Source: a virus
IMG/VR virus record: IMGVR_UViG_3300048592_000897
Location: 1 to 48,859 of that record
DNA: 48,859 bases
Direction: 5' to 3' (one strand)
Within the stretch, counting starts at the first letter, position 1, and every line of letters begins with the position of its first letter. Positions 6,662 through 43,135 of this stretch are shown one piece after another. The position numbers and the translations under genes are program-made. The notes beneath the pieces are model-generated. The model searched no databases. It saw only the letters and a program-made list of their open reading frames with translations, and was not told the DNA's origin.

Positions 6662-6675
6662 ACCTGCCTCTTGTC

Positions 6676-6715
6676 CCCTCTCCCACCGGGAGAGGGCTAG
6701 GGAGAGGGTTCTTCC
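6676..6715 (+). repeat. Palindromic repeat, CCCTCTCCC family copy A
   Basis: CCCTCTCCC-acc-GGGAGAGGG followed by a second GGGAGAGGG. It lies in the gap between two capsid-region genes. Copies of the same unit and orientation are at 11160-11195, 13503-13536 and 42124-42158. Confidence 0.8.
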
Positions 6716-7124: not shown

Positions 7125-8249
7125 CTAGGCCAGTTCTGTCTCCATAATCACCACCTTGCTGGGGTCTTCGATGACCGGCAGCCCGTTCGTCACCGACTCG
7201 CCATGCAGCTCCCAGGGTCTCTCTTGAGGCACATACATCCGCCCCCAGCGCCCAGGCACGTTCGCGCCCTCCACGGTGGGGCCGATATGCGTGTACCCAA
7301 TCGGCCGGTTGTCCAGCGGCTGCTCCTGAGCGCCCATACCGACGACGTAGCCGCCTCGGCCGGCCGCGCCGATGGCCAGCAACTTGCCCGGGGCCAGGAA
7401 CGGCACCTTGATCGTCTGCGTCGGGGCGGCCGGATTGATGACCTCCCCCTCCAGTCCATAGCTCCACAGGCGCAGCGTGTCCCGCGCGTCGCCGCTCGGC
7501 TGCTCCGTCGTGCCGGTGAACCGCTGCACGTCGAACCACCCGCCATTCGCATCCTGGCCGATGACGCGCAGCTTGTTCACGGAGTTGTGAATGATGGTGT
7601 CGATGGTGTCGGGGTGGGCGATAAATGCGGTCACGCGGTAGCGCAACAGCCGCATCGCCGCCTGCACATCCGCCCAAAACGCCGACGCGCTCCCCCCATA
7701 CGCCGCGTTCGACGCCAGCGTGCGCACCGTCAGCACGTTGCCGCTGGGGATCCCATAGTTCACGCGCAACGTCACATTGTCATACCGCCAGTCGATGCCG
7801 TCCCCCTCGCTCAACGCCTGCCCGCGCAGCCACTCCATCGTGTCCAACTGCGCCTGCATCACCACGTTGTTGAACAGCGCCTCGACCTCGCCCCTCAACC
7901 AGCCGCGCACGTCGCCGCCCTGCCCGATGATCGCCTGGCTGAACGCATAAATCTCCCGCAACGCGTTCTCCGTGAGCGGCAGCTTCGCCGTCAGCTTCGC
8001 CGTCCGCTCCATGAACGTCCGTGCGTCCATCGCCCCCACCTGCGCATACCGCGCGTCCATGCCCGACAGGCCTGCGAAGGTCGGAATGATGCGCATCGAA
8101 CCGGTCGACACGTCATAAGTCGGCCGCGTCTGCTCCGGCAAAAACCGGTTGAACAGATAGCTCGCCGGCGTCCGCGCCGCCCGCGCGATCTCGAAGAACC
8201 CCCGGTTGCCGCCGAGATCGTTGATCACCTGAGTGAAGTCCAAGTCCAT
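7125..8249 (-). CDS. Major capsid protein (phage cap E-like)
   Basis: 374 residues, downstream of scaffold and decoration genes. The N-terminal arm (FLPEQTRPTYDVSTGSM), the run of conserved alpha/beta segments, and the C-terminal pattern around YVVGMGAQ and PSKVVIMETEL fit the E-type HK97-fold capsid family. GGAGG sits seven bases before the ATG at 8249. It has no obvious prohead-protease gene nearby. High confidence from order scaffold-decoration-capsid and length. Confidence 0.88.
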   Translation of the reverse strand: MDLDFTQVINDLGGNRGFFEIARAARTPASYLFNRFLPEQTRPTYDVSTGSMRIIPTFAGLSGMDARYAQVGAMDARTFMERTAKLTAKLPLTENALREIYAFSQAIIGQGGDVRGWLRGEVEALFNNVVMQAQLDTMEWLRGQALSEGDGIDWRYDNVTLRVNYGIPSGNVLTVRTLASNAAYGGSASAFWADVQAAMRLLRYRVTAFIAHPDTIDTIIHNSVNKLRVIGQDANGGWFDVQRFTGTTEQPSGDARDTLRLWSYGLEGEVINPAAPTQTIKVPFLAPGKLLAIGAAGRGGYVVGMGAQEQPLDNRPIGYTHIGPTVEGANVPGRWGRMYVPQERPWELHGESVTNGLPVIEDPSKVVIMETELA

Positions 8250-8732: not shown

Positions 8733-9344
8733 TTATCTCTTCATCATCGCCGCGAACGGGTCGTCGGCCGTCGCGCGTTTTTGCTGCCTCTCAATCGCCT
8801 GCCTCACATAATCCGTTTGCCCGCCCTGGGCCTGGGGCGTCGGCGGTGTTGCCGCCCGCTGCCCGGCCGCCGGCTGCGCTGCCAAATACGCCTCCACGAT
8901 CTCCAACTGCTCGAAGACACCCCTGTCCGCCAGCAGCTTCTGCATCGGCTCCGGCAGCCCGCGCTTCTTCGCGTCCAGCATCGTCGTGATGAACGACGTG
9001 GCCCGCTCCAACTCGCCCTGCGTCGTCTTGAGCTGGCCATCCAACTCGCCCACCCTGGTCTCGTGTTTGCGCGCCAACGCTTCCCACTTCTGCTCGTCCT
9101 TGAGCCGCTGTGCCTCGGCCGCGTCCGTCTCCGTCTTCGCCTTGGTTCGCTGCTGCTCGTCCCACTGCTCGCGCGCCCGCTTCAACCGCTCGGCCACCAC
9201 CTGATTGACCACCGGCTGCAACTCGGCTGGGATGGCCGGCGTCGCGGGCGAGGGCGTGGGGCTTGCCCCGGCCGCCTGGCCCGTTGGCTGTTCCTGCTGA
9301 GGTTGCGCGCCTCCCTGGGCGCTGTCCGTCGTCTCGGTTGTCAT
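8733..9344 (-). CDS. Capsid scaffolding protein
   Basis: 203 residues. Disordered Pro/Gln/Ala N-terminus, a long charged coiled-coil at about 45-115 (AERLKRAREQWDEQQRTKAK), and a basic C-terminus ending FAAMMKR. This is the usual build of a phage scaffold, and it sits directly before decoration and capsid genes. Start ATG at 9344 has GGAG six bases upstream. It is the first gene after the leader at 9396-9464. Confidence 0.82.
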   Translation of the reverse strand: MTTETTDSAQGGAQPQQEQPTGQAAGASPTPSPATPAIPAELQPVVNQVVAERLKRAREQWDEQQRTKAKTETDAAEAQRLKDEQKWEALARKHETRVGELDGQLKTTQGELERATSFITTMLDAKKRGLPEPMQKLLADRGVFEQLEIVEAYLAAQPAAGQRAATPPTPQAQGGQTDYVRQAIERQQKRATADDPFAAMMKR

Positions 9345-9395
9345 CTCTATCTCCGTGAACCGTTTATGCCGTCCGTCGACGTAGTGAGGAGAAAT

Positions 9396-9432
9396 AAAAA
9401 AAGCGGCCGGTCATCCGATGGATGACGGCCGC
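9396..9432 (-). terminator. Strong hairpin plus T7 in the leader of the capsid operon
   Basis: Read on the minus strand: GCGGCCG-TCATCC, a three-base loop, then GGATGA-C-CGGCCGC (13 paired bases, one bulge) followed by seven T's. It is a textbook intrinsic terminator, yet it lies between the promoter at 9471-9499 and the first gene at 9344, so it may act as an attenuator or end a small leader RNA. Confidence 0.85.
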
Positions 9433-9470
9433 TCGTATGGCGAGAGCCAAAACTCTATTCAGTTGAACAC

Positions 9471-9499
9471 AGTATATTAGCTCTGTTGTTCTATGTCAA
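9471..9499 (-). promoter_or_regulatory. Promoter of scaffold/capsid operon
   Basis: On the minus strand: TTGACA (9499-9494), 17-bp spacer, TATACT (9476-9471). This is near-consensus for a housekeeping sigma factor. Transcription would start near 9464 and meet the terminator-like hairpin before reaching the scaffold start at 9344. Confidence 0.8.
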
Positions 9500-9566
9500 T
9501 CCTCAGCCTTGAAGCTCTTTGCCAACGACCGATTGATTACACCCCAGAATCACATATAATCGTTCT

Positions 9567-9630
9567 ATATCTAGAGACAAAATTCGGCTCCATGCCGTGT
9601 GGACAGTAATGTCCCTATATCTCTAGATAT
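9567..9630. promoter_or_regulatory. Inverted 11-bp sites upstream of capsid promoter
   Basis: ATATCTAGAGA at 9567-9577 is repeated in inverse orientation (TCTCTAGATAT) at 9620-9630, in an AT-rich, gene-free stretch (9433-9635). Possible binding sites for a regulator of the capsid operon. Nothing else is visible in this gap besides the promoter and leader. Confidence 0.45.
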
Positions 9631-9635
9631 CTCAG

Positions 9636-9845
9636 TTAGTCGTCATTGGTAGCATATCGACTAGCGGCCTTGTCGTCCTGGCCTCGCCGCAGGCCAACGC
9701 CGTGCTGGTGCAGCAACTTCCGCTGTGCATTCGTGATCACCGCGCTCTCCAACTGATAGCGGTTCTCAATCGCCGCCACCATCAGCAGCAACGCCTGCCT
9801 CACCGTGATCCAAAACTGCCGCTCCCGGTCACCGCTCTGCGTCAT
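9636..9845 (-). CDS. Small protein, unknown
   Basis: 69 residues. Start ATG overlaps the stop of the previous gene (ATGA at 9845-9842). The helical segment TVRQALLLMVAAIENRYQLE is followed by a basic, polar C-terminus. No family recognised. It is the last gene before the AT-rich regulatory gap. Confidence 0.5.
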   Translation of the reverse strand: MTQSGDRERQFWITVRQALLLMVAAIENRYQLESAVITNAQRKLLHQHGVGLRRGQDDKAASRYATNDD

Positions 9846-11120: not shown

Positions 11121-11447
11121 CTACCTACCCCCTCGCCCCTTGGAAAAGGTTGTCTCGCCCCCTCTCCCCCTGGGAGAGGGTTGGGGAGAGGGTCTTCCCG
11201 CCTGCGCCCCCAATGCCCCAGCCATCACCCCCACGATCAGAAACACCGCCGAGCTAAACACATGCGCCCCGCTCCACAGCCCCACCACCCCCAACGCCAC
11301 CAGAAACGTCGTCACCAGCAGCAACCCCCACGCCAACACCGCGATCACCATCGGCGCGCGCCAGTACGTCGGCCCCTCCACGATCATCCTCGCCTCGATC
11401 ACTTCCCGCTCCGGCACTTCCCTCATCGAAAACCCTTCACTCGCCAT
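11121..11447 (-). CDS. Small membrane protein in head operon
   Basis: 108 residues from ATG 11447, overlapping the previous stop (TGATG). Two hydrophobic segments at about 33-55 and 61-82 are predicted to cross the membrane. The C-terminal tail (PSPQPSPRGRGG) is encoded by copy B of the CCCTCTCCC palindrome, so a host-type repeat has become part of the coding region. A membrane protein within the head genes is unusual; function unknown. Confidence 0.55.
   Translation of the reverse strand: MASEGFSMREVPEREVIEARMIVEGPTYWRAPMVIAVLAWGLLLVTTFLVALGVVGLWSGAHVFSSAVFLIVGVMAGALGAQAGRPSPQPSPRGRGGETTFSKGRGGR
11160..11195 (+). repeat. Palindromic repeat, CCCTCTCCC family copy B
   Basis: CCTCTCCCCCTGGGAGAGG followed by TTGGGGAGAGGG, within the 3' end of the membrane protein gene at 11121-11447. 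Same orientation as the other copies. Confidence 0.8.
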
Positions 11448-16992: not shown

Positions 16993-18303
16993 TCATCCTT
17001 CCACAACCTCCCCCCGAATCTCAAAAGCCCTTAGATACCTGTCTAATGCTACCGCCACGAACGGCGGCGCGATCTCCACTGCCCGGCACTGCCGCCCCAA
17101 ATTCTCGGCCGCCAATATCTGCGACCCGCTGCCGGAGAACGGCTCATAGCACAGTTCCCCCGGCTCCGTATGCTGCCGGATGGGAATCTCGAATAGCGGA
17201 AGCGGCTTCGACGTGGGGTGGTCTGTCGCCTCGAAAGCCGCCTGTGTCGGGAACTCCCACACCGTCCCGATCCACTCATCGACGACCCGACGCGGCTTCT
17301 TCCCCTTCACCCAGCCGAAGAAGCACGGCTCGTGCTGCCACATGTACCACGACCTGGTCAACACCGGCCGGTCTTTAGCCCAGATCAGTTGTTGATGCAC
17401 GAATGCGCCATGCCGTTCCCACACCGCTTCGAGCATGGCCTGCCGGCGAGAGGCGTGCCAGCAATACCATGCCGCGTTCTCGGCGACGGCGTGTTCGACG
17501 GCCGTGGCGATGAAGCGTTCATATAACTCCTCACCTTGGGCCGAGGCGTCCCAGTCTTTATAGGTGGATGACCAATCCTTGTTCATCACCCGCTTCTTCT
17601 TCTCCGGCGCGTTCCACGCCTGCGGATGGTTGGTGCCATCGTAGTCCACCAGGTAGGGGGGATCTGTGGCAAAGAGCGTCGTCCTCTGCCCCTGCATGAG
17701 CCGCTGCACCACGGCCGCGTCCGTGCAGTCGCCGCAGGCCAGCAGGTGGTACTGCCCCTCCACCCGGCTCGGTAGCTTCCATAGTTGCCCTGACACCACA
17801 CCCCACTCGGCCGCCAGCTCCTCCGCCCGGCTGAACTGCGGTTCCGCGTCGCCCGGCTCGCCCGGCCCATTCGCGGCCGACTCCACGCCCGCCGCCCGCA
17901 GCAGCTCCTCCAACTCTCCGTCGGCGAAACCCGTCTCTAAGCCAAGGTCAGGGTCAATACTCTCGACGAGCGCCTGCAGCGTCTCGTAATCCCACGACGA
18001 CAGCTCTGCCAGTCTGTTATCGGCAATCCCGAACGCAACCGCGGTGGTCGGGTCGTCCTCCACGAACACGGCCGCCACGTGCGTCCAGCCCAGGCGCTGC
18101 GCCGCTTGGAACAGCCCGTTGCCGGCCTCCACCTTGTTCCCCTCCGAACGGTTGACCACAATGGGTTTGCGTTGGCCGTACTGCGCCAAGCTGGCCGCGA
18201 TGCGCTCAACAGCGTGGCCCATCCGCGCGTTGGCCGGGTCGAGGTGCAGGTCTGCCACCGGCGTCGCCAGCGGCAGCAGGTCGGCAACGATGTTGTGGAT
18301 CAC
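16993..18303 (-). CDS. ParB-like domain fused to DNA methyltransferase
   Basis: 436 residues. The N-terminus (about 10-110) is a ParB/Sulfiredoxin-type domain with HLDPANARM and RKPIVVNRSEGNKVEAGNG. The rest is an N4/N6 DNA methylase: DPPY at 214-217 precedes the AdoMet motif EPFSGSGS near 387, the beta-class order. Such ParB-methylase fusions are common in phages and probably modify viral DNA against host restriction; target site unknown. The start overlaps the end of the LexA-like gene. Confidence 0.9.
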   Translation of the reverse strand: MIHNIVADLLPLATPVADLHLDPANARMGHAVERIAASLAQYGQRKPIVVNRSEGNKVEAGNGLFQAAQRLGWTHVAAVFVEDDPTTAVAFGIADNRLAELSSWDYETLQALVESIDPDLGLETGFADGELEELLRAAGVESAANGPGEPGDAEPQFSRAEELAAEWGVVSGQLWKLPSRVEGQYHLLACGDCTDAAVVQRLMQGQRTTLFATDPPYLVDYDGTNHPQAWNAPEKKKRVMNKDWSSTYKDWDASAQGEELYERFIATAVEHAVAENAAWYCWHASRRQAMLEAVWERHGAFVHQQLIWAKDRPVLTRSWYMWQHEPCFFGWVKGKKPRRVVDEWIGTVWEFPTQAAFEATDHPTSKPLPLFEIPIRQHTEPGELCYEPFSGSGSQILAAENLGRQCRAVEIAPPFVAVALDRYLRAFEIRGEVVEG

Positions 18304-18650
18304 GTTCCGACTCCCTCAAAAACACCCCACCTTTCCCCCATCTTTCCCCCATCTTTTCTCTCTAATTGCGTCTGCGGTGGCGTCCATGTCGCGCCCGGTA
18401 TTCCAATGCGCCGCGCGTCCCGCGCCCCTGCCCGCGTGATCAGCCCGTGCCGCTCCAGCGCCGCCAGATGCACCAGCACCGTAGACTTCGATGCCACCCC
18501 TACTCCGGCCGCGATCTCCTCCAGCGATGGCGAGTCGCCGCAGTGATCTGTCTTGAACTTGACCACGAACGTCAGCACGTCCAGCGCCCGGCGGCCCGGC
18601 CGCGGGGAATGCAATCTCGCTGAGTCACTCACAACTATCATCTCAGTCAT
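18300..18650 (-). CDS. LexA-like winged-helix DNA-binding protein
   Basis: 116 residues. Residues 20-85 follow the LexA N-terminal winged-helix pattern: RRALDVLTFVV, then SPSLEEIAAGVGVASKSTV (recognition helix), LVHLAALERHGLI and a final basic wing. There is no S24-type autoprotease domain, so it cannot self-cleave. It may regulate the phage through the GAAC-N4-GTTC boxes at 30235 and 37525, which are LexA-box-like. It overlaps both neighbours. Confidence 0.78.
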   Translation of the reverse strand: MTEMIVVSDSARLHSPRPGRRALDVLTFVVKFKTDHCGDSPSLEEIAAGVGVASKSTVLVHLAALERHGLITRAGARDARRIGIPGATWTPPQTQLERKDGGKMGERWGVFEGVGT

Positions 18651-19163: not shown

Positions 19164-19192
19164 AGTGTAAACTATGTTTCATAATGAAACAA
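19164..19192 (-). promoter_or_regulatory. Promoter with palindromic operator in its spacer
   Basis: On the minus strand: TTGTTT (19192-19187), 17-bp spacer, TACACT (19169-19164). The perfect dyad TGTTTCAT-A-ATGAAACA (19175-19191) fills the -35 and spacer, an ideal place for a repressor to block polymerase. Confidence 0.7.
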
Positions 19193-19815: not shown

Positions 19816-19868
19816 TGGCTACTCCATTTAAACGCATTCTAGAACATGCGAGCTATGCCGATCAAGGG

Positions 19869-24639: not shown

Positions 24640-24795
24640 TGCGGTTGGGAGAGTTGCTGAAGTGCGATTCGCTGGGCCAAGGGCCCGCCCGGCCGGGGAA
24701 GTCGAAAGGGCTGCGTGTGGCGGTCCGCTCGGGGTAGGCCCGATTCGGCAATAGTCCCTTTCCACCTTGAAGACCGGTCTTCAAGGTGGTTTCTT
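24640..24795 (+). ncRNA. Candidate structured small RNA ending in a perfect terminator
   Basis: No open frame fits this stretch. An extended -10 (TGTTATACT, 24625-24633) precedes it. GTTGCTGAA (24653-24661) pairs with TTCGGCAAT (24744-24752), flanked by GGGA/TCCC pairing outside and GGGCC/GGCCC (24674-24678 / 24737-24741) inside. It ends with CCACCTTGAAGACC/GGTCTTCAAGGTGG (24762-24789) and a T-rich tail. Could instead be a regulated leader of the next gene. No known RNA family recognised. Confidence 0.55.
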
Positions 24796-29289: not shown

Positions 29290-30204
29290 CTAAGCAAGGG
29301 ACTGTCTGTCCCCTGCTTTTCCTTTCCCGTTGACGTGGGCCAGCGGGCTGTACCGGTCATGGAACTCCTGAATCTCTCGGTCATCAAAGACGGCGTAGAA
29401 CTTAGCCGTCACCGGCGAGCCGGGTGAGTGGCCCAGCAGTCGGCCGAGGACAGCCAGGTTGCCGCCGTTGCGCAGGAAGTTGCGGGCGAAAGCGTGCCTG
29501 AAACTATGCGCGTTGACCCTGCCCTTTACCCCCGCCCGTTCCCCGATTCGCTCCAGGAGCATCCGCACGCCGGCCGGCGTCAACCCGCCGCCCTTCGCCG
29601 AGAGAAACAGCGCGTCAGTCTTCGCCACCGGGCGCACGGCCAGATAGAGACCAAGCACCTCCGCTGTCAGTGCTGTGAAGTAGACTCGTCGGGAACGATT
29701 CCCTTTTTCATTGACGACGGCGCACCGATGCTCCAGATCGAGCGACTCCAGCGTCACGGAGCACAGACCCCCAACGCGACAGCCGGTGTCGATGAGAAAC
29801 AGAATCACCGCCCGGTCACGCACATCCTCAGCCGGTAACTGCTCCAGTAGCCGAGCCAGGTCGTCATCCGCCACGGCCTTGGGTGGTGTAATCGGCAGTT
29901 TCACCATCGGAACCGCCAGCGCCACATTCTGCGCCAGCAACCCCTCTTCGACCAGCCATGAAAATAGCCGCCGCACAGCCCGCTGGCGGCCGTGGACGCT
30001 ATAGATGCTCATGTCACGGTCGATAAGGTAGGCGCGGTAAGAACGGATAGCGGCGGCTGACACATCGCCCAGGCAACGCTCCGAGCCGACGTGCTCAACA
30101 AACGATGACAGGCAGCGGCCGTACCACTCTCTCGTGGACTCGGACACTTCCCCCGCCACCCCCGCCAGGAACTCCTGAACGGCAGTCTCTAGGGTCATAT
30201 TCAT
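29290..30204 (-). CDS. Tyrosine integrase
   Basis: 304 residues. N-terminal SAM-like core-binding domain (about 5-90) and catalytic domain with R143 (TGCRVGG), K167, H233-x-x-R236 (HSFRHAF), H259 (LLGHS) and Y270 (TAKFYAVF), a complete XerC/D-type active site. It should catalyse attP x attB recombination at the tRNA-Lys site just downstream. No clear ribosome site precedes ATG 30204; ATG 30198 is an alternative. Confidence 0.93.
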   Translation of the reverse strand: MNMTLETAVQEFLAGVAGEVSESTREWYGRCLSSFVEHVGSERCLGDVSAAAIRSYRAYLIDRDMSIYSVHGRQRAVRRLFSWLVEEGLLAQNVALAVPMVKLPITPPKAVADDDLARLLEQLPAEDVRDRAVILFLIDTGCRVGGLCSVTLESLDLEHRCAVVNEKGNRSRRVYFTALTAEVLGLYLAVRPVAKTDALFLSAKGGGLTPAGVRMLLERIGERAGVKGRVNAHSFRHAFARNFLRNGGNLAVLGRLLGHSPGSPVTAKFYAVFDDREIQEFHDRYSPLAHVNGKGKAGDRQSLA

Positions 30205-37429: not shown

Positions 37430-37524
37430 ATTCGCTCATCCGTTCTAAAACCCCACCAGCCGCGCCAGGCTGGCCCAGGTAAAGCGTAACGCTCCCTACC
37501 TATCTAACTATCCACCTTCGCCTA

Positions 37525-37536
37525 GAACCCACGTTC
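37525..37536. promoter_or_regulatory. LexA-box-like site before CAP-domain gene
   Basis: TAGAAC-N4-GTTCTA (37523-37538), a perfect dyad containing GAAC-N4-GTTC, about 95 bp upstream of the CAP-domain gene and just after the terminator at 37557-37598. Confidence 0.6.
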
Positions 37537-37556
37537 TACGCGCGAAAACGCGAAAA

Positions 37557-42113: not shown

Positions 42114-42123
42114 CGCTCCAGTT

Positions 42124-42158
42124 CCCTCTCCCCCTGCGAGAGGGTTAGGGAGAGGGCC
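42124..42158 (+). repeat. Palindromic repeat, CCCTCTCCC family copy D
   Basis: CCCTCTCCCCCTGCGAGAGGG then TTAGGGAGAGGG, in the short gap between two tail genes. Same orientation as copies A-C. Confidence 0.8.
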
Positions 42159-42160
42159 TT

Positions 42161-43135
42161 CTACGCATACTCGCCGCGCGCGAAAGCAGTCCCATCATCG
42201 CCCAACGTCGCCACCCCAATATCGGCCGTGTCTGCGTCATTCCGCACCCGATCCTGTGTCGCCGTGGTCAGGTGCTTGTTGCGCGCCCAGGTGTACAGGA
42301 AGTGGAGCATCTCCACGGGCGAAGCCGTCGCCGGCGGCACGACCGTCGGCTCCGCATAGGTATCCGCCGCCAGCGCATCCACCACCTCCGCGTTCACCTG
42401 CGCCGCGCTCAGGTCATTGAGCGCGGCGATCATTGCCTCCGTCGCCAATCCAGCCTGAATCTCCACCACCGCGTCGGCCGCCACCGCGCTCGCGTTGACC
42501 GAGTTAGCCGCCAGCGTCATCGGGCTGCCGACGGCCGCCGGGCTGGCCGGCAGAGTATTAACCTTCGCCAGAATCGAGGCTATTTCGGAGTCCACGGCCG
42601 CCAGGATGCTGGCTACGTTCGTCAGGAGGGTAGCCACCTCGGTATCGATGTAGCTGGCCACCGTCGCCACTGCCGCCGCCGTTGCTAACCCCGTTTGAAT
42701 CTCCGCTACTGCGTCGGCCGCCAACGCCGCCGCGTCAATCGCATTGTCAGCGACACTCCCCGACGTGATCGCCCCACTGCCCCACGCCACCCCGCCCGCC
42801 TGCACAGTATTCACACCCAACTGCGCCACCGACAGATCGACCGGGTACAGCACAATCGGCGTCGTTTTTGCCCCGCTCGTCGATGTCTTAACCACCACGA
42901 CCACGGCCGACGACGTGCCTATCTCCGCGCTCGTCAGGTCGAGGTAATAGATGCCACTGCTCCCGATCTCCACCGCCTCATTCGTGCAATCCGCGAACGC
43001 CGCGCCGTCCTTGGAGATCTCGCTATCCAGATTCGCTGCCCCCGACACCGGATCGCCATCCGCGTCGAGGATCGGAAAATAGACACGGTATGCCGTGCTC
43101 CGAATCGGAAATGGCCTCGCGTCACTTGCTGCCAT
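42161..43135 (-). CDS. Minor tail / tail fibre protein
   Basis: 324 residues. N-terminal beta domain (RVYFPILDADGDPVSG, SGIYYLDLTSAEIG) common to phage tail fibre and baseplate proteins, then a long Ala-rich region (140-270) with repeated AVAEIQTGLATAA and AADAVVEIQAGLATEA segments, likely a trimeric coiled shaft. C-terminal tail RNDADTADIGV. Probably a fibre or wedge at the tail tip. Confidence 0.72.
   Translation of the reverse strand: MAASDARPFPIRSTAYRVYFPILDADGDPVSGAANLDSEISKDGAAFADCTNEAVEIGSSGIYYLDLTSAEIGTSSAVVVVVKTSTSGAKTTPIVLYPVDLSVAQLGVNTVQAGGVAWGSGAITSGSVADNAIDAAALAADAVAEIQTGLATAAAVATVASYIDTEVATLLTNVASILAAVDSEIASILAKVNTLPASPAAVGSPMTLAANSVNASAVAADAVVEIQAGLATEAMIAALNDLSAAQVNAEVVDALAADTYAEPTVVPPATASPVEMLHFLYTWARNKHLTTATQDRVRNDADTADIGVATLGDDGTAFARGEYA

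Follow-up and report, generated by a model that had tools for sequence, protein, structure and literature searches.

The antiterminators Q and AlpA load at a promoter spacer element, with a terminator lying ahead of the first gene (PMC6606751, PMC7969949, PMC9371919), and both also require, early in the transcribed region, a -10-like element that causes pausing (PMC6606751, PMC7969949). A promoter-terminator module in the late block of the temperate phage IMGVR_UViG_3300048592_000897 has part of this anatomy. The window analyzed here is the whole IMG/VR record of 48,859 nucleotides.

With the lambdoid pR'/tR'/Q arrangement (lambda, 21), the module shares a near-consensus sigma-70 promoter with a conserved element between -35 and -10 (the position of the QBE site), a terminator before the first late gene, and the lack of any other recognizable virion-operon promoter. 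It differs from the lambdoid systems in having no conserved -10-like pause element and no Q homolog that we could find, and in its position mid-way in the virion genes, where it comes after a separate terminase-portal operon promoter and would gate only scaffold, capsid, and tail. The alpBCDE locus of Pseudomonas aeruginosa, controlled by AlpA, likewise has a spacer element and an intrinsic terminator immediately ahead of its first gene, but the spacer described here lacks the ABE motif GGGACG-N5-GGTA, our searches found neither an AlpA homolog nor a -10-like element, and the module would control a phage structural operon whereas AlpA controls lysis genes. A structured leader RNA near the promoter is shared with HK022 put. 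However, put sites are two-hairpin structures much longer than 30 nt, whereas the pre-terminator leader of the module is only 30 nt long with one small hairpin. As no -10-like pause, known antiterminator gene, or antiterminator hairpin was found, we do not file the module under the Q or the AlpA family.

The late block lies on the minus strand and comprises terminase, portal, minor head, scaffold, major head, and tail genes. Tape-measure coding exits the left end of the window and continues from the right end, which shows that the genome is circularly arranged; in the tape-measure gene (1-1100), a unit of about 42 aa (LGEAKxAISGQLxEWQxAIFDWAGEEDWQGVAEHVAxLIGEK) is repeated head to tail. No relatives of capsid and portal were found among 50,697 named phages, and scans with the terminase and a conserved 69-aa gene gave no additional phages. 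The relatives used here are three IMG/VR contigs, a contig of the Promineifilum sp. SSF11 MAG, the G072 prophage, and the short G413 contig. A tyrosine integrase is encoded at 29290-30204. The G072 prophage is flanked by a tRNA-Met gene on one side and by a 52-bp repeat of that gene's 3' end on the other, and an integrase (61% identical) lies beside this second repeat. Because relatives occur in the Promineifilum contig and as the G072 prophage, the hosts are likely Chloroflexota of the Promineifilum order, an assignment that depends on the title of a single MAG contig and on a single prophage. Bulking filaments of activated sludge make up this part of the Chloroflexota, and to our knowledge no transcription control has been described in their phages.

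The capsid-operon promoter, TTGACA-17-TATACT (9471-9499, minus strand), matches the consensus at 11 of 12 positions, with the -35 at 9499-9494, the spacer TAGAACAACAGAGCTAA at 9493-9477, and the -10 at 9476-9471, and is the near-consensus promoter that a sequence-only reading of this DNA had pointed out. Only three sites in the 48.9-kb window reach at least 11/12, this one included; the other two, equal in quality (23215, minus; 28781, plus), have no terminator within 200 nt. Transcription is predicted from the spacing to start at A9464, 7 nt past the -10, and to enter a 30-nt non-coding leader (9435-9464, minus) with a small hairpin and 15 invariant positions. This leader has no ATG and no conserved start codon across the six homologs, and its RNA folds 5.7 sd better than shuffles.

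The leader runs into an intrinsic terminator (9396-9434, minus) with a GC-rich 15-pair stem, one bulge, a 3-nt loop, and a U7 tract. The hairpin, GAGCGGCCGTCATCC-ATC-GGATGA(C)CGGCCGCTT, occupies 9434-9401 with a terminal G-U among its 15 pairs and one bulged C, because of which a simple scanner missed it, and the seven T's occupy 9402-9396. The sequence-only reading had described a 13-bp GC hairpin with seven T's; the hairpin and T's are there, and the stem is slightly longer than was proposed. A transcript from A9464 through the last U of the tract would be 69 nt long. At -25.4 kcal/mol, this is the strongest terminator in the window, where the best ones in 10 Markov-resampled genomes ranged from -13.4 to -22.4. 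Past it comes a block, CGTCGACGGACGGCATAAACGG (9360-9381, minus), that precedes the ribosome-binding site, occurs once in the window, and is near-identical in five of the six homologs, including one with another capsid. The scaffold gene (8733-9344, minus; PHROG 3760 head scaffolding, E 2.7e-4) is the first past the terminator, and its ATG at 9344 follows the hairpin as had been claimed. The major head protein (7125-8249, minus; PHROG 29, E 2e-10) is 87-92% identical in relatives.

Seven records, representing six distinct phages or prophages, contain the module, and all six homologs were aligned, L021 and L039 being near-identical in the module. The distance from the -35 to the U-tract is 97-101 nt in all six, and no other promoter scoring 10/12 or better in any of these genomes has a terminator within 200 nt. 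In the terminator stem, 96.7% of the alignment cells are paired (23-67% in slid controls) and three pairs have changed on both sides. Compensatory changes together with the kept spacing indicate that the structure is selected, not the sequence alone. The scaffold gene past the module is poorly conserved among the homologs. The capsid genes of L058 are of a different lineage and are preceded by a small extra protein, as in L049; its scaffold is only 37% identical and its capsid is non-homologous, while the promoter, leader, terminator, and a CGTCGACGGACGG block after the terminator are kept. L049 itself, a far relative (portal 29% identical), has a very strong terminator in the gap directly before the scaffold gene, and TGATACAAT in front of that terminator resembles an extended -10. 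This case is at most suggestive. Five actinophages with an L049-like capsid had no clear terminator before the scaffold gene.

Conservation of the promoter extends into its spacer. Invariant positions among the six homologs number 6/6 in the -35, 13/17 in the spacer, 5/6 in the -10, and 1/6 in the discriminator, and the 24-nt upstream flank is not conserved. Spacer identity is 82-94% in all homolog pairs compared with 21-46% in the 24 nt upstream (79% in one pair), and identity among the homologs begins sharply at TTGACA. A spacer so much better kept than the upstream flank implies that more than sigma contacts are selected. The conserved 69-aa gene upstream (9636-9845, minus) has last codons that overlap the -35 and spacer in three homologs (VIDIEQ-stop and similar); coding does not explain the conservation, since the gene stops short of the promoter in three genomes (the window, L026, L018) that conserve the promoter all the same. 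The spacer is a candidate loading site for an antiterminator, and it could just as well be an operator for a repressor or an activator. Its TAGAAC-N4-GAGCTA has one further copy in the window, at 19840-19855, inside another minus-strand spacer, that of the weak promoter-like site TTGATC-18-TAGAAT (19865-19836), and the L026 contig likewise has a second copy in a weak promoter-like spacer.

Judged from sequence, there is an even chance that regulated read-through acts as a gate for the capsid and tail genes. By default, polymerase would start at 9464 and halt at 9396, freeing an RNA of about 69 nt, and the terminator would also halt transcripts coming from the terminase-portal operon that lies upstream. 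A factor encoded by the phage or its host would act, most likely via the conserved spacer element and perhaps the leader too, so that polymerase would depart in a termination-resistant form and transcribe the virion genes. That read-through is regulated, that a protein is responsible, and that this protein binds the spacer are the steps that we infer. The promoter and terminator are kept as a pair across diverged relatives, which makes it probable that the shell genes are held off until something allows polymerase past the stop. No sigma-70-like site of at least 9/12 was found on the minus strand from the terminator to base 1, so polymerase would have to pass the terminator to reach the virion genes; downstream promoters that are weak or not of the sigma-70 kind are conceivable. 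The candidate promoter of the first late operon, the terminase-portal operon, is TTGTTT-17-TACACT (19164-19192, minus), which is conserved in four genomes, has the palindrome GTTTCATTATGAAAC across its -35 and spacer, and is not followed by a terminator. With this promoter upstream and the capsid promoter downstream, both transcripts would meet the terminator before the scaffold gene. That a near-maximal terminator is kept at a constant distance from a strong promoter is understandable if its passage is regulated.

The means of passage was sought among known types. None of the window proteins that were compared with PHROGs and Pfam matched an annotated antiterminator family (Q-type, N-type, other); an antiterminator unrelated to these families is conceivable. 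A -10-like pause hexamer (at least 4/6 matches, with A2 and T6) is absent from five of the six leaders, and only the window has one, TAGAGT at +8. No competing antiterminator hairpin was found, as pairing of leader to terminator arm reaches only -7.7 to -10.9 kcal/mol versus -22 to -27 for the terminator. An attenuator of the leader-peptide or riboswitch type is therefore rejected, there being neither a conserved start codon nor a competing hairpin. Pairing between leader and U-tract appeared in folds of three homologs; it is A/U-rich and drawn from too few sequences, and it is not claimed. A new and unrelated antitermination, in which a regulator such as the phage LexA-type protein would load at the spacer without a -10-like pause and pass the terminator 69 nt downstream, is rather unlikely in our estimate. 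If the gate is real, the lambdoid late-gene strategy of a terminator first and regulated read-through would operate in a distant phylum, and the device would be compact (about 105 bp), its candidate loading site delimited at base resolution.

The sequence-only reading had left two options, gating of the capsid genes by antitermination or attenuation, or a separate RNA of about 70 nt. Conservation in six homologs, the compensatory changes in the stem, and the conserved spacer support a functional device, and both options survive. We favor gating because there is no other recognizable promoter before the tail genes. The main rival, which we hold to be possible but doubtful, is a small-RNA gene whose promoter makes a stable RNA of about 69 nt acting in trans, the capsid genes being reached by other transcripts. 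Promoter, short conserved leader, and strong terminator make up the complete anatomy of such a gene, and the leader is conserved in two blocks without an open reading frame. On the other hand, expression of the capsid operon past the terminator would go unexplained, as would the conserved promoter spacer; the leader has no Rfam match and pairs with phage ribosome-binding regions no better than shuffles (25 of 60 as good). The conserved spacer and leader would not be needed by a plain attenuator either, and the window's strongest stem at a fixed short distance from the promoter fits poorly with a constitutive partial terminator, leaky and unregulated, that sets the virion mRNA level or ends the terminase-portal transcript while the strong promoter compensates. 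Terminators at operon joints are common, and from the layout a near-consensus promoter could send a fixed fraction of polymerase through; even so, we consider this explanation unlikely. Least probable by far is that the module is a recombination joint, a conserved linker for the exchange of capsid modules kept in sequence for recombinational pairing. The block does lie close to the start of the non-homologous capsid module of L058, but the compensatory stem changes and kept spacing argue against a joint, as does the scaffold protein likeness (37%) that continues across it.

These explanations partly overlap, and an operator in the spacer is compatible with the gate. Such an operator might bind a repressor, either host LexA or the phage LexA-type protein, making the promoter DNA damage-induced with the terminator as a second safeguard, which we regard as quite unlikely. 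The phage does encode a small LexA-type winged-helix protein without a peptidase domain (18300-18650, minus), with PF01726 above the cut-off in the window and three relatives and 37-55% identity; it is one candidate DNA-binding regulator and nothing more. The left half of the spacer site contains GAACA, a LexA half-site of the host order, and the exact TAGAAC-N4-GAGCTA recurs once, in the weak promoter-like spacer at 19865-19836, and also in L026. The idea of a LexA box in the spacer was prompted by this GAACA and by TAGAAC-N4-GTTCTA-like sites next to host uvrB and priA. It is rejected on the strength of the box derived from 30 lexA promoters, CGAACA-N2-TGTTCG: lexA boxes mostly score 16-25 bits against it, whereas the spacer reaches 2.5 bits and ranks 68th in the window. 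Elsewhere in the window, a LexA-type GAAC-N4-GTTC site, TAGAACCCACGTTCTA (37523-37538), lies upstream of a CAP-domain protein gene and is also present in the G072 prophage.

The inverted ATATCTAGAGA copies upstream of the promoter, exact at 9567-9577 and 9620-9630, had been proposed as sites for the regulator. This proposal is abandoned, as four of the six homologous promoters lack them, a promoterless copy occurs at another place in the G072 prophage, and the two arms covary as a paired helix. They form the outer helix of a three-way-junction element (9566-9630), assigned to the plus strand on the basis of its GNRA-like loops. The arms surround a CGGC-loop-GCCG and a hairpin with the plus-strand loop GUAA, GCAA, or GAAA; the invariant hairpin is CGGCUYCAYGCCGUG. 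Across five copies, 14 of 20 pairs have changed on both sides, a value reached by none of 500 shuffles. Its absence from the promoter region in four homologs indicates that the element is independent and not an operator of the capsid promoter. Besides the window, copies lie in L026 (6620-6684), L038 (13770-13834), L129 (about 2498-2566), and L055 (1501-1564). Among the carriers of the element are genome G186, where the model match is weak, and a Synechococcus elongatus plasmid, where 28 bases are exact (E 9e-5) and a tyrosine recombinase gene follows after 214 nt. No Rfam family matched the element. It is a candidate unnamed structured RNA that Chloroflexota phages or genomes have in common with a plasmid of a cyanobacterium.

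At 24642-24751, the plus strand carries two DUF3800-VI motif RNAs in tandem (RF02915, 51 and 41 bits), and a strong terminator comes next at 24762-24789. A repeat roughly 40 bp long is dispersed over the window (11159-11211, 42117-42161, and 6669-6715) and is found in tandem in L021 (6132-6218).
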